Positions 18,772 through 33,455 of a DNA stretch of 42,189 nucleotides are shown piece by piece. Under the pieces are notes generated by a model. It did no database searches and was not told where the DNA came from. It was given only the letters and a program-made list of their open reading frames with translations. Numbering within the stretch: position 1 is the first letter of the stretch; each line of letters begins with the position of its first letter. A program made the position numbers and the translations under genes. The DNA comes from an uncultured Bacillota bacterium (GTDB taxonomy: Bacteria > Bacillota > Clostridia > Oscillospirales > Oscillospiraceae), in contig CAMTMZ010000024.1 in NCBI GenBank assembly GCA_947073765.1, forward strand, positions 1-42,189, written 5' to 3'.

Positions 18772-20895
18772 TTATTTGGATTCGTCCTCGTTCTGATCAG
18801 CAGGAGCGGTTTCCTCCTCGGGGGGCTGTTCCTCCTTAGGGGGCTCCTCCAGCGCCGCGGGGGGCTTGATCTCCTCACTGACGATGTGGATAGCCTTGGC
18901 GGGAGGCTCGATGTCCCCGGACAGGGCCTTATTCTTGGAGCGGGTAGAGGCATAGGCGTCCTCCACCAGGGAGGGATCCCGGCCCTCGATAATGGCCACC
19001 ATCTCGCCGCCGGTAATGGTCTCCTTCTCCAGCAAATAGGCCACCACTTTGTCCATGTCCTCCCGGTTGGCCTTGATGACCTCCACGGCCTCCTGATAGC
19101 ACACGTCCAAAATGGCCTTGACGGCCTTATCCATAACAGCGGCGGTGTCCTGGGCACAGTCCAGGCCGTACCCCCCCTCCAGATACTGGTTTCGGACGGA
19201 CCCCAGGGCCATCATGCCGAACTCCTCGCTCATGCCGTACATGGCCACCATGTTCCGGGCAATGTTGGTGGCCTCCTGAATGTCCTGGGAGGCGCCGTTG
19301 GTCATGGTGTCCATGATCACCTCCTCGGCGGCCCGGCCGCCCATGGAGACGGCGATCTTGGCCATCAGCTCTTCCTTGGTGCGCAGGTTGGTTTTGTCCT
19401 CCTCGGGCATGAGCAGGGTGTAGCCCAGGGAGCCCTCGGTGTGGGGAACGATGGTGATTTTCTGCACCGGCTCGGCGTTTTTCTGCTTATAGGCCACCAT
19501 GGCATGGCCCACCTCATGGTAGGCCACCAGTTTGCGCTCGAACTGGGTGAGGACGGAGTTTTTCTTCTCGCTGCCGGCGATGACGAACTCGAAGGAGGCC
19601 AAAAGGTCCTCCTGGTTGACGGCCCTACGGCCGTGGCGGACGGCCCGGAGAGCGGCTTCGTTGACCAGGTTGGCCAGGTCGGCGCCTACGGTTCCGGCGG
19701 TGGCCAGAGCGATTTTCTTCAGGTCCACGTCCTCGCTGAGACGGATGTTCCGGGTGTGGACCTGGAGGGTGGACAGACGGCCGGCCAGGTTGGGCCGGTC
19801 AATGGTGATCCTGCGGTCGAAGCGGCCGGGGCGGAGCAGGGCCTTGTCCAGCACTTCGGGGCGGTTGGTGGCCCCCAGGACGATGACACCCTTGCCGGGG
19901 TCAAAGCCGTCCAGCTCGGCCAGCAGCTGGTTGAGGGTCTGCTCCCGCTCATCGTTGCCCCCCATGCGGTTGTCACGGGACTTGCCGATGGTGTCGATCT
20001 CGTCGATGAAGATGATGCAGGGGGCCATTTTGCTGGCCTCTTTAAAGAGGTCGCGGACACGGGAAGCGCCCACGCCTACAAACATCTCCACAAAGTCGGA
20101 GCCGGAGATGGAGAAGAAGGGCACCCCCGCCTCCCCGGCCACAGCCTTGGCCAGCAGGGTTTTGCCGGTGCCCGGAGGGCCCACCAGCAGAGCGCCCTTG
20201 GGCAGCTTGGCGCCGATCTCGGTGTACTTCTGGGGATTGTGGAGGATGTCGATAATCTCCTCCAGACTCTCCTTGGCCTCGTCCTGGCCGGCCACGTCCC
20301 GGAAGGTGACGCCGGTTTTTTTCTCCACATAGACCTTGGCGTTGGCCTTGCCCACGCCGCCGATGCCGCCCATGCCCCCCTTGCCGCCGATGCCCCGCAT
20401 GAGGAACACCATGGCGCCCACCATGATGACGATGGGCAGGACGGTGGTGAGCAGCAAATAGAGGATTTGAGAGGAGTTGTCAACCGGCGGGGTGTGGTAA
20501 TATACCCCGTGTTCCTTCATCAGGTCATAGATGCCCAGGTCGGCTACAGGGGGCGGGGTGGTGACGTACTCGGTCTCCCGGTCATTTTGGATGGGCATCC
20601 AGGAGAACATATTGTTCATTGGCTGCTGGCCCTCATCCTGGTGGATATAGGACAAAGCCTCCTCCTCCACACCCTCCTTGAGGGTGATGGTGTACAGCCC
20701 GCTCTCCATTCTGACGGACTCCACCAGCTCCGCCACCACCCACTGGTGGAAGACGGAGTAGTCCACCTGGACCTGATTGGAGCTGTTGTAGGAGCTGGTG
20801 CAGCTGCGGAAGAGCAGCGTCAGCATCAGCGCCCACAAAATCAGCGAGATCAGGCCAAAGGTGTTTTTTCGATTATTTCCTTTATCTGGTTTCAA
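18772..20895 (-). CDS. ftsH: ATP-dependent zinc metalloprotease FtsH
   Basis: 707 residues. Membrane AAA+ protease for misfolded membrane proteins and regulators; in Bacillus it is needed for sporulation. Order: TM1 about 13-30, an extracytoplasmic domain, TM2 about 143-165, a Gly-rich linker, the AAA domain with Walker A GPPGTGKT (239-246), Walker B IIFIDEID (about 294-301) and the second region of homology ([21 protein letters not shown]), then the M41 protease with HEVGH (460-464) and the third metal ligand Asp in [13 protein letters not shown]. The C-terminal ~60 residues are Glu/Pro/Lys-rich. The start is TTG 20895, supported by GGAGG at good spacing; no in-frame ATG fits. Confidence 0.97.
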
Positions 20896-31323: not shown

Positions 31324-31349
31324 AATTTGTGTAAACCGCTAAAACTGAA

Positions 31350-31389
31350 AAAACTGCCCGGTTTCCCTTGCGGAACCGGGCAGTTTTTG
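31350..31389 (+). terminator. Terminator of the DUF1461 gene, overlapping the uraA promoter
   Basis: AAAACTGCCCGGTT (31350-31363) and its complement (31374-31387) followed by a T run. The loop carries the -35 and the 3' arm is the spacer of the uraA promoter. Confidence 0.85.
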
Positions 31390-31396
31390 GTATAAT
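31368..31396 (+). promoter_or_regulatory. Promoter for the uraA leader
   Basis: TTGCGG (31368-31373) and a consensus TATAAT (31391-31396) with a 17-base spacer and a TG-G extended -10. Expected transcription start is near 31403. Confidence 0.75.
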
Positions 31397-31423
31397 GCCC
31401 CGGATAGAAAAGGAGGGATTGCC

Positions 31424-31483
31424 ATGTTCGCGCTGATGTATCTTAGCCCGGTGCTTGGCGGTCTGTCTGTTTCTATTCGTTGA
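31424..31483 (+). CDS. Putative leader peptide (19 aa) of uraA
   Basis: A 19-codon ORF (starting MFALMYLSP, ending SVSIR) with an AAGGAGGG ribosome binding site six bases before its ATG, about 20 bases behind the expected transcription start. Its stop TGA (31481-31483) lies three bases before the terminator hairpin at 31487, and its last third is U-rich in RNA (12 of 22 bases at 31461-31482). This is the layout of a translation-coupled attenuator like the rph-pyrE or pyrBI leaders of enterobacteria. No run of a regulatory codon is seen. Confidence 0.55.
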   Translation: MFALMYLSPVLGGLSVSIR

Positions 31484-31486
31484 CGG

Positions 31487-31512
31487 CAATCACGTTTGTG
31501 ATTGTTTTTTTT
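31487..31512 (+). terminator. Intrinsic terminator in the uraA leader (putative attenuator)
   Basis: CAATCAC (31487-31493), GTTT loop, GTGATTG (31498-31504), then eight T. It sits between the promoter and the uraA start, so unless bypassed it would block uraA. A ribosome stalled or terminating at the leader stop would cover the 5' arm. Confidence 0.7.
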
Positions 31513-31540
31513 ATGTGTACGAGAGAGAAAGGAGAACAAA

Positions 31541-32887
31541 ATGAACAACAACCAACCCATCCGCGACGCCCTGCAGCTGGGATTGCCCAAGATGCTGATT
31601 TTGGGCCTGCAGCACATGTTTGCCATGTTTGGGGCCACTGTTCTGGTGCCCATTCTGGTGCAGGGCTATGGACTGCCCCTGTCGATTCAGACCACCCTGC
31701 TTTTTGCCGGCCTGGGCACCCTGTTTTTCCACTTTTGCACCAAGTGGAAGGTGCCCGCGTTTCTTGGCTCCTCCTTCGCCTATCTGGGCGGTTTCGCCGC
31801 CGTAGCGGAGCTGGACTCCGGCATCTACGCCGGTATGTCCGGGGAGGAGAAACTGCCCTACGCCTTGGGCGGCATTGTAGTGGCCGGCCTGCTGTATCTG
31901 GCGCTGGCCGGACTGATCAAGGCGGTGGGTGTGCGCAAGGTGATGCGCTTTCTGCCCCCGGTGGTCACCGGACCCATTATTATTCTGATCGGACTGTCTC
32001 TGGCGCCCAGCGCCATCAATAACGCCTCCACCAACTGGTGGCTGGCTGTTTTGTCCATCGCTGTGATTGTGGCCGCCAACATCTGGGGCAGGGGCATGGT
32101 AAAGATTATTCCCATTCTGCTGGGGGTGCTGATCCCCTACGCTGTGGCCCTGGTTACCAGGCAGGTGGACTTCTCCGGTGTGGCCGCTGCCAACGCCGTG
32201 GGCATCCACCCCTTTGTACTGGCTAAGTTTGACGTGACCGCCGTTCTGGTGATGGCCCCCATCGCCATTGCCGCCATGATGGAGCACATTGGGGATATGT
32301 CCGCCATCTCCGCCACGGTGGAGGAGAACTTTATTGAGGACCCCGGCCTGCACCGCACCCTCATCGGCGACGGCGTGGCCACCTCCATCGCCGGCATGTT
32401 CGGCGGCCCCGCCAACACAACCTATGGTGAGAACACCGGCGTGCTGGAGCTGTCTCAGGTCTTTGATCCCAAGGTGGTCCGCCTGGCCGCGGTTTATGCG
32501 GTGGTGCTCTCCTTCTCTCCCAAATTTGCAGCGGTGATCAACTCTATCCCCACCGCCATTATCGGCGGGGTGTCCTTTATCCTCTACGGTATGATCTCCG
32601 CCATCGGCGTGCGCAACGTGGTGGAAAACCGGGTGGACTTTACCAACTCCCGGAATCTGATTATCGCTGCTGTCATCATGGTATGCGGCCTGGGATTTAA
32701 AATCTGGGGCTTCAGCAACGAGTTCTCCGGCCTAACCTTTACGGTTGGCGGCACCTCCATTACCCTGACCTCTCTGGCCATTGCCGCCATTGCCGGAATT
32801 GCCCTGAACGCTGTGCTCCCCGGCAAGGACTATGAGTTTGGATCCGACGTAACCAAGGGCCGCTCCGGCGACTTTGGACGGTATTGA
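31541..32887 (+). CDS. uraA: Uracil permease, NCS2 family
   Basis: 448 residues, 14 membrane segments expected. It imports uracil with protons. The uracil-type signatures are present: GLQHMFAMFGATVLVP near the start, MMEHIGD with E248/H249, and GGPANTTYGENTGV with E297, spaced exactly like E241 and E290 of E. coli UraA; xanthine permeases have a different motif here. The ATG at 31541 follows AAAGGAG by six bases. Expression is likely governed by the leader ORF and terminator at 31424-31512. No PyrR-binding loop is recognised. No other pyrimidine gene follows; a terminator closes the unit at 32893. Confidence 0.95.
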   Translation: MNNNQPIRDALQLGLPKMLILGLQHMFAMFGATVLVPILVQGYGLPLSIQTTLLFAGLGTLFFHFCTKWKVPAFLGSSFAYLGGFAAVAELDSGIYAGMSGEEKLPYALGGIVVAGLLYLALAGLIKAVGVRKVMRFLPPVVTGPIIILIGLSLAPSAINNASTNWWLAVLSIAVIVAANIWGRGMVKIIPILLGVLIPYAVALVTRQVDFSGVAAANAVGIHPFVLAKFDVTAVLVMAPIAIAAMMEHIGDMSAISATVEENFIEDPGLHRTLIGDGVATSIAGMFGGPANTTYGENTGVLELSQVFDPKVVRLAAVYAVVLSFSPKFAAVINSIPTAIIGGVSFILYGMISAIGVRNVVENRVDFTNSRNLIIAAVIMVCGLGFKIWGFSNEFSGLTFTVGGTSITLTSLAIAAIAGIALNAVLPGKDYEFGSDVTKGRSGDFGRY

Positions 32888-32892
32888 GCCCT

Positions 32893-32919
32893 AAGCCCCC
32901 TGTACAAGGGGGCTTTTTT
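32893..32919 (+). terminator. Terminator of uraA
   Basis: AAGCCCCC (32893-32900) and GGGGGCTT (32908-32915) followed by T6. Confidence 0.9.
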
Positions 32920-33053: not shown

Positions 33054-33455
33054 ATGGATCTGAAGAGTACGTTTGAAACCTTAAAGGACAGAGCCACCGA
33101 CCTGGCTCAGGCGGGCGTGGCTCAGTCCAAGCGGCTGGCCGAGATTGCCAAGCTGAAAACCGCCAACATGGCGGAGGAGGACGCCATCAGGAAGGCCTAT
33201 ATTGAGATCGGTAAGCTGTATTATGCCGAGCAGGGTGTTGCACCTGACGGGGCCTACGCCGCCGCCTGCGAGCGGATCACCGCCTCGAAGGCCCTTATCG
33301 AGACCAACAACGAGCGCATCGCGGAGCTGAAGCAGCCCGGGGACCCTGAGCCTGAGGCGGAGGCTGCCGCCGAGGCGGTGGAGGAGGCTGTGGCCGATGC
33401 CGTGGAATCCGCGGTCGAGGCCGTGGCTGACGCTGTGGAGGATAAGCAGGACTGA
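33054..33455 (+). CDS. Small helical/coiled-coil protein (133 aa)
   Basis: Not assigned to a named family. Residues 1-95 are almost all charged amphipathic helix (TFETLKDRATDLAQAG, then AEEDAIRKAYIEIGKLYYAEQG), and a second helix (YAAACERITASKALIETNNERIAELK). The tail from about 96 is low-complexity Ala/Glu/Val in short repeats (EAVADAVE-like units). No signal peptide or membrane segment. The IRKAYIEIGKLYYAE segment resembles one seen in clostridial zinc-ribbon proteins, but the ribbon itself is missing. Own promoter and terminator; ATG preceded by GGAGGT. Confidence 0.7.
   Translation: MDLKSTFETLKDRATDLAQAGVAQSKRLAEIAKLKTANMAEEDAIRKAYIEIGKLYYAEQGVAPDGAYAAACERITASKALIETNNERIAELKQPGDPEPEAEAAAEAVEEAVADAVESAVEAVADAVEDKQD

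Follow-up and report, generated by a model that had tools for sequence, protein, structure and literature searches.

A candidate transcription attenuator with a self-locking leader ribosome site in front of uraA in uncultured Oscillospiraceae

In the enterobacterial pyrBI and rph-pyrE systems, low uridine triphosphate (UTP) makes RNA polymerase pause in U-rich RNA, so that a trailing ribosome covers the terminator. In the trp leader of Escherichia coli, a downstream leader segment limits translation of the leader's own trpL peptide. Here we describe the leader of uraA, a gene predicted to encode a uracil permease, in an uncultured Bacillota bacterium of the Oscillospiraceae. The window is the whole stretch of DNA analyzed, 42,189 nucleotides (nt) of contig CAMTMZ010000024.1 (assembly GCA_947073765.1). 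The leader contains a short open reading frame (ORF) that ends at an intrinsic terminator. Its Shine-Dalgarno (SD) sequence lies in a strand, P, that co-varies with the U-rich end of the same ORF, a strand that we call Y. On balance, we favor a transcription attenuator whose leader locks its own ribosome site and in which ribosome loading races RNA polymerase. Its purpose would be to have uracil uptake on, probably, only at low pyrimidine supply.

Leader anatomy and P:Y co-variation

A sequence-only reading of this DNA had described an extended -10 promoter, a 19-codon ORF with an SD sequence, a U-rich last third, a stop codon 3 nt before a hairpin, a run of eight T residues and then uraA. All of these are present as described; the -35-like element in the list below was not part of that description.

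31368-31373, + strand: -35-like element TTGCGG, with a 17-nt spacer to the -10 element (from sequence)
31388-31396, + strand: extended -10 element TGG-TATAAT (from sequence)
31401-31424, + strand: P strand, the 5' untranslated region (UTR) with the SD sequence, up to and including the A of the leader ATG; predicted to form the 5' arm of the lock helix (minimum free energy (MFE) and centroid folds, co-variation)
31410-31417, + strand: SD sequence AAGGAGGG of the leader ORF (from sequence)
31424-31483, + strand: leader ORF MFALMYLSPVLGGLSVSIR-stop, with ATG at 31424, 19 codons and TGA at 31481-31483
31456-31479, + strand: Y strand, the U-rich end of the leader ORF and predicted anti-SD arm of the lock helix (fold)
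31485-31512, + strand: intrinsic terminator, with stem 31485-31493/31498-31506 and T8 at 31505-31512 (terminator scan, fold)
31529-31534, + strand: SD sequence AAGGAG of uraA (from sequence)
31541-32887, + strand: uraA, NCS2 uracil permease and putative regulated gene (TIGR00801, 321 bits, cut-off 291.8)

Transcription of the leader presumably starts near 31402-31404. The CAATCAC/GTGATTG hairpin starts 3 nt past the leader TGA and was picked up by a terminator scan of the window; folding adds two pairs to its stem. The best specific model for the downstream gene is the uracil permease PRK10720 (302 bits), and because this match is under its cut-off of 477, the gene name uraA is likely rather than curated.

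For comparison, we collected 199 uraA upstream regions, including repeats of the same locus, from UraA searches in 60 relatives, in 250 family genomes and in a named genome collection (best 80 matches listed), plus further fetched stretches. The leader detector required a hairpin of at least 6 pairs and a T-run at most 130 nt from uraA, an SD sequence with a start codon, and an ORF of at least 10 codons whose stop falls between 30 nt before and 12 nt after the stem. It accepted a leader in 110 regions, found only a terminator in 16 and found no terminator in 73. The 110 accepted leaders comprise 102 distinct ones, or 67 representatives under 70% identity. Alignment of related uraA leaders was the check that the sequence-only reading had proposed, and the open frame, the stop position, the pyrimidine-rich end and the terminator are kept among the accepted leaders.

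The P:Y helix was first proposed by RNAalifold on close relatives. In the window, P pairs with Y and buries the leader SD and start codon, and the leader with its terminator folds at -49.1 kcal/mol (z -6.23). In a swap test, P:Y partners were exchanged between leaders (60 representatives, 2000 permutations). A leader's own P and Y pair with a mean of -21.04 kcal/mol, compared with -17.61 for swapped partners (z -8.2), a value reached in 0 of 2000 permutations. Before pairing was computed, we dropped L087, L159, L182 and L184 (no convincing leader), L035 (the P:Y helix is the terminator), and L073 and L156 (wrong start or hairpin). When all 67 representatives are kept, z is -7.9. One leader with a misassigned start, L024, was retained among the 60. 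Against GC-matched partners, the own P:Y pairing is better in 46 of 60 leaders (p 4e-6). The test gives 0 of 2000 for the 15 close relatives alone, and 72 of 5000 for nine later-collected leaders that are unlike the first set.

Control swaps gave no signal (counts out of 2000 permutations). Y was paired with the uraA SD region (1463), the ORF middle (1785) and upstream DNA (599), P with the ORF middle (1840), the uraA SD (731) and the terminator (1242), and the uraA SD with the terminator (1695). In 44 loci, the uraA SD showed no preference for its own coding region over swapped ones, and nearer in it did even worse (1996 and 1603 of 2000).

Compensatory changes give the same picture. An alignment of the 15 close relatives holds 28 double-change cells (11 in the lock and 17 in the terminator), against 9.8 when shuffled (0 of 500). 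Nine pairs have a double change, which was reached in 14 of 500 shuffles, and further pair types were not unusual in this alignment (115 of 500 shuffles). Versions slid out of place score 0.10-0.25, compared with 0.49 for the real register. By MFE, 55 of 60 leaders form at least 8 P:Y pairs, and 50 of 60 have at least 6 bases of the SD engaged with Y. The lock helix covers about -24 to 0 relative to the ATG and ends a median of 4.5 nt before the terminator stem, so that lock and terminator can coexist.

This co-variation argues that Y is a co-evolving anti-Shine-Dalgarno strand and not merely a pause tract. The SD-to-Y lock is the main feature of the locus and is missing from the sequence-only reading, which had proposed a coupled attenuator of the pyrE kind. 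The conserved leader ORF and terminator before uraA, with no amino-acid signature, agree with that proposal, but its view of the U-rich third as a pause tract has to be widened.

The leader ORF itself appears to be under selection, and its peptide does not. The frame test used 117 distinct terminator-bearing loci, 105 with an SD sequence and a start codon picked blind to frame and 12 without. A stop codon more than 12 nt before the stem is found in the ORF frame in 4 of the 105 loci, compared with 48 in the +1 frame and 25 in the +2 frame. In the commonest arrangement (15 of 67 representatives), the leader stop codon shares two bases with the start of the stem, and the stop codon is UGA in 55 of 67. 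No common motif is visible among leader peptides, even between species with 92-95% identical UraA, and the leaders contain no conserved amino-acid run (the most frequent adjacent pair is Leu-Leu, in 17 of 60). The fraction of U is 0.448 in the last 30 nt of the ORF and 0.254 before, and 56 of the 61 representatives with an ORF long enough for the comparison are richer in U at this end (Wilcoxon 9e-11). U occupies 0.50 of third codon positions in the tract, 0.24 in the earlier ORF and 0.11 in uraA; this bias therefore points to selection on the RNA and not on the peptide. Between P and Y the leader is poorly conserved. A riboswitch or T-box would have an aptamer or an Rfam family match, and neither was found in the window, where the Rfam scan gave no family at gathering score.

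Because Y is also the co-evolving anti-SD strand, U-richness of the tract alone is no evidence of UTP sensing. Y was compared with what pairing would need. G:U pairs in place of G:C occur at 189 of 530 P-side G residues, compared with 121 of 548 on comparison strands (p 1e-6). The U fraction is 0.35 in unpaired Y and 0.47 in the spacer that leads to the terminator. When strands of the same length are compared (31 nt, 60 leaders), Y has 0.452 U and the reverse complement of P has 0.331, and TTNTTT is present in 32 of 60 and 9 of 60, respectively (p 2e-5). The motif is found in 33 tracts, with 17.1 expected from shuffles. Firmicute-type NusG stimulates pausing at TTNTTT, and the motif alone is insufficient, according to part of a published study (PMC12288461). 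The preference for U in Y beyond pairing needs supports the idea that polymerase speed in a UTP-hungry stretch may be what is read.

Among the 67 representatives, the best upstream candidate for a -10 hexamer matches at 5-6 of 6 positions in 52, TGn is present in 40, and the commonest -35 core is TTGC; these counts are the best match within a search stretch, taken without a chance control. In the window, a terminator-like inverted repeat (31349-31390) follows the upstream gene of the TIGR01906 family, and several close relatives look similar there. The -35 element TTGCGG sits in the loop and 3' arm of this repeat, so the leader promoter and the upstream terminator overlap. A scan of the whole window for a like design returned three candidates: the uraA leader, 19433-19475, and the end of the ORF at 33054-33455. 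The second of these is antisense to an ORF, which we take to be FtsH.

Distribution of the leader and the presence of PyrR

By source, the detector passes 27 of 30 regions from relatives, 27 of 29 from family genomes, 30 of 80 from named genomes (best 80 matches) and 26 of 60 further stretches. The most distant named loci (L086-L141, many titled Lachnospiraceae) include 7 passes out of 56, and one of these, L087, is unconvincing. Misses of the detector include L089, in which the uraA start is misplaced, and L054, L081, L155, L208 and L258, in which the ORF end is outside the limits or the SD is absent. A later order-wide search, with three genus hits, gave 35 loci, some of them already collected, and a leader in 13. 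The leader extends across many genera of Oscillospiraceae and into other families of the same order, which does not fit the suggestion of the sequence-only reading that the system had arisen in this lineage.

A covariance model built from 15 leaders of one genus and run over 64 genomes of the genus gave 45 matches in 44 genomes, with E values up to 0.0023. The neighbors of seven matches were inspected: four strong matches precede uraA; the other three, weak and with E values from 0.0115 upward, do not. The same leader was not seen by eye before pyrB or pyrE in 11 + 11 upstream regions of 330 nt each from leader-type genomes, to which the detector was not applied.

A few loci differ in their arrangement. 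The lock helix of L035 is itself the terminator hairpin. In L194, the SD strand pairs with the strand directly before the T-run, so that the SD lock is the terminator; there is no clear leader ORF, and the genome encodes PyrR. L197, L199, L200 and L174 have another terminator type, with stems around AATTGT/ACAATT and a leader ORF that reaches into it, and three of these four have fewer than 8 P:Y pairs by MFE. The genome bin G324, possibly a mixed bin, contains two uraA copies (L256 and L253), each with a leader, one of which is identical to that of the window.

The genome of the window (estimated 96% complete) has no PyrR protein match at E 0.001. Among leader-type genomes, PyrR protein exceeds the NF003549 cut-off in 0 of 15. 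For the PyrR RNA RF00515, 0 of 12 genomes reach the cut-off of 54 bits, and G020 has a single weaker match of 43.8 bits. The sequence-only reading had recognized no PyrR loop, and this covariance search, with the Rfam scan of the window, bears it out. PyrR control of the leader was ruled out, since neither the protein nor its binding RNA is found in the genome of the window.

PyrR is over the cut-off in 40 of the 250 family genomes (41 at E 1e-20). Across the 89 loci examined in this family set, leader and PyrR nearly exclude each other: the genome encodes PyrR for 1 of 53 leader loci and 13 of 36 non-leader loci (Fisher 1.7e-5, uncorrected for kinship). By position, pyrR lies directly before uraA in 12 of the 13 PyrR-bearing non-leader loci. 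This arrangement, with no leader, is seen in L169, L176, L178, L183, L190-L192, L198, L202 and L204-L206. Between pyrR-uraA loci and leader loci there is an apparent swap of control systems at one gene.

Proposed mechanism and competing explanations

The 5' and 3' arms of the terminator co-vary (0 of 2000 in the swap test), and compensatory changes are present in the stem. For P, Y and the ORF middle, pairing with the two terminator arms does not exceed that of swapped partners, so no upstream antiterminator is seen, and an RNA antiterminator formed by these segments was ruled out. Read-through therefore appears to require something occupying the RNA. The leader ORF ends at this point, and a ribosome at its stop codon would be the simplest route. 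A terminator several base pairs past a gene is almost completely repressed in E. coli (PMC4824070, in part).

We predict the following sequence of events. RNA polymerase would first make P, next the leader start codon and some 20 codons whose end is Y, and last the terminator stem, from the leader stop onward. With a fast polymerase, Y would be made before a ribosome loads and would pair with P, leaving the leader untranslated; the terminator would then fold and uraA would be off. When UTP (and cytidine triphosphate, CTP) is scarce, the polymerase would be slow through Y, allowing a ribosome to load and translate to the stop codon, where it would cover the 5' arm of the terminator, and uraA would be transcribed. 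The ribosome would normally be late if, in this lineage too, transcription outruns translation. Slowing in Y would buy time and the lock would make lateness irreversible, and a race is proposed for this reason. We infer all three of its elements: leader translation, read-through caused by translation, and pyrimidine nucleotides as the signal.

More tentatively, and with slightly less confidence than doubt, we suggest that the leader is a "snap-shut" timer with a distinct attenuator logic, one pyrimidine-rich strand being nucleotide sensor and lock at once. If true, coupled attenuation would be workable where polymerase normally outruns the ribosome, because only ribosomes that load during the slow-down count. 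The leader would also offer a short, defined RNA for measuring ribosome loading against polymerase speed, and it points to the likely means by which gut bacteria lacking PyrR control uracil uptake.

Several observations weigh against a self-locking, pyrimidine-sensing attenuator. In Bacillus subtilis and many low-GC Gram-positive bacteria, RNA polymerase outruns the ribosome and terminators lie directly after stop codons (PMC13323073 and PMC7858274, each in part). The GC content of the window is 60%. A terminator of uraA itself (32897-32912) starts 10 nt past the uraA stop, which is a published proxy for uncoupled transcription, and if transcription is uncoupled, antitermination needs a genuine slow-down of polymerase. 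Complementarity to the SD strand accounts for part of the U-richness of Y, the uraA 5' UTR has a reverse complement nearly as rich in U (0.431, with TTNTTT in 17 of 60), and the tract of the window has no TTNTTT. L022 is a leader without a U-rich tract, and 5 of 60 leaders form fewer than 8 P:Y pairs (one being L024, with its misassigned start). One genome, G293, carries leader and PyrR together, and 15 of the 89 loci lack both a terminator and PyrR. With the 5' arm of the terminator, the 40 nt behind it pair more strongly than most swapped partners do (12 of 2000), and with Y slightly so (74 of 2000); this stretch is transcribed too late to decide termination. In five gamma-proteobacterial pyrBI leaders, the swap test was not significant (23 of 120 permutations).

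The same self-locking attenuator could respond to a signal other than UTP or CTP, such as translation initiation capacity, general polymerase speed or another factor, with Y being U-rich mainly to complement the A/G-rich SD strand. P:Y complementarity does explain much of the U-richness, no sensor domain is conserved and the peptide is variable. We consider this unlikely, as U is favored over C beyond pairing needs, the strong covariance matches were found only before uracil permease genes (where neighbors were inspected), and the leader is rarely alongside PyrR. A plain UTP-sensitive coupled attenuator, with P:Y pairing as the incidental result of a purine SD and a pyrimidine tract, would account for the leader ORF, its U-rich end and a terminator at the stop codon. 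It appears distinctly improbable, because P co-varies with its own Y, and no such signal is seen for the uraA SD, although it is just as rich in purines (1463 of 2000). This argues against a general complementarity of purines and pyrimidines.

In trp, RNA polymerase is kept waiting by the 1:2 hairpin until a first ribosome melts this hairpin. P:Y could be a pause hairpin of this kind, with NusG pausing polymerase at T-rich DNA and the nucleotide level being secondary. The position of the helix end just before the terminator stem and the enrichment of TTNTTT, where NusG stimulates pausing, would suit it. However, the helix hides the SD and so keeps off the ribosome needed to release polymerase, and the tract of the window lacks a motif that is in any case insufficient alone (PMC12288461, in part); we find this explanation very improbable. 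A separate small gene that ends in a terminator of its own and plays no part in uraA control would resemble the arrangement in uncoupled organisms, whose terminators are close after stop codons (PMC7858274, in part), but the peptide is unconserved even at 92-95% UraA identity. Every collected copy precedes uraA, and in the window the 28 nt from the T run to the uraA ATG leave little space for a promoter, so we give this explanation very little credence. The presence of a leader peptide and a terminator would allow an amino-acid or peptide-stalling attenuator, which seems scarcely credible with no conserved amino-acid run, no conserved peptide and no upstream antiterminator pairing. Amino-acid attenuation was ruled out because conserved regulatory codons were not found.

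Comparison with described attenuators

PyrR-dependent attenuation in Firmicutes (RF00515) shares terminator control of pyrimidine genes with the self-locking attenuator proposed here and differs in that the genome of the window has neither PyrR protein nor binding RNA. The trp leader of E. coli also has a leader peptide whose translation is limited by a downstream segment; it differs in sensing an amino acid through tandem Trp codons and in having an antiterminator. Leader ORFs that control termination in a Firmicute are described for bmrCD and tlrB of B. subtilis (PMC4191407 and PMC12288461, each in part). In the parts of these sources used here, bmrCD has a predicted alternative antiterminator, unlike the uraA leader, and both bmrCD and tlrB respond to ribosome-targeting antibiotics. 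Among the papers listed by our literature search, in part the first 12-15 of many, none reports an attenuator in a Clostridia uraA leader or an SD-to-U-tract lock in a pyrimidine attenuator, with older pyrBI work largely outside the search.

At the sequence level, the uraA leader contains three features expected of a UTP-sensitive coupled attenuator: an ORF with a predicted ribosome site that runs up to a terminator before a pyrimidine gene, a U-rich tract near the terminator (partly through SD complementarity), and no alternative RNA antiterminator among P, Y and the ORF middle. E. coli rph-pyrE likewise has an ORF ending before a terminator ahead of a pyrimidine gene. Wild-type rph ends about 10 nt before the terminator, and the truncated rph annotated in K-12 ends ~34 nt before it. 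In rph-pyrE, which was not folded here, the upstream ORF is an entire gene, so nothing there corresponds to the short self-locking leader. The anatomy is closer to that of pyrBI than the label "pyrE-like" given by the sequence-only reading suggests.

By anatomy, the uraA leader appears to be of the pyrBI type. E. coli pyrBI, with its leader ORF pyrL, has in common a pyrimidine gene, a short leader ORF and a U-rich tract just before an intrinsic terminator. It differs in that pyrL runs through the terminator, whereas the uraA leader ORF usually stops at the 5' base of the terminator; pyrBI also serves synthesis and uraA uptake, and the two belong to different phyla. In the E. coli K-12 pyrBI leader (L150, 3400-3600, - strand), the leader SD (CGGGAGGA) and the U-rich tract are likewise partners in the MFE structure. 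An SD:U-tract helix was read by eye from the MFE dot-brackets of E. coli, Klebsiella, Proteus and Photobacterium, and in part only from that of Aeromonas. These predicted folds suggest that a lock may have gone unnoticed in the classical E. coli pyrBI attenuator, and the uraA leader points to a possibly overlooked step in this best-known of UTP attenuators.

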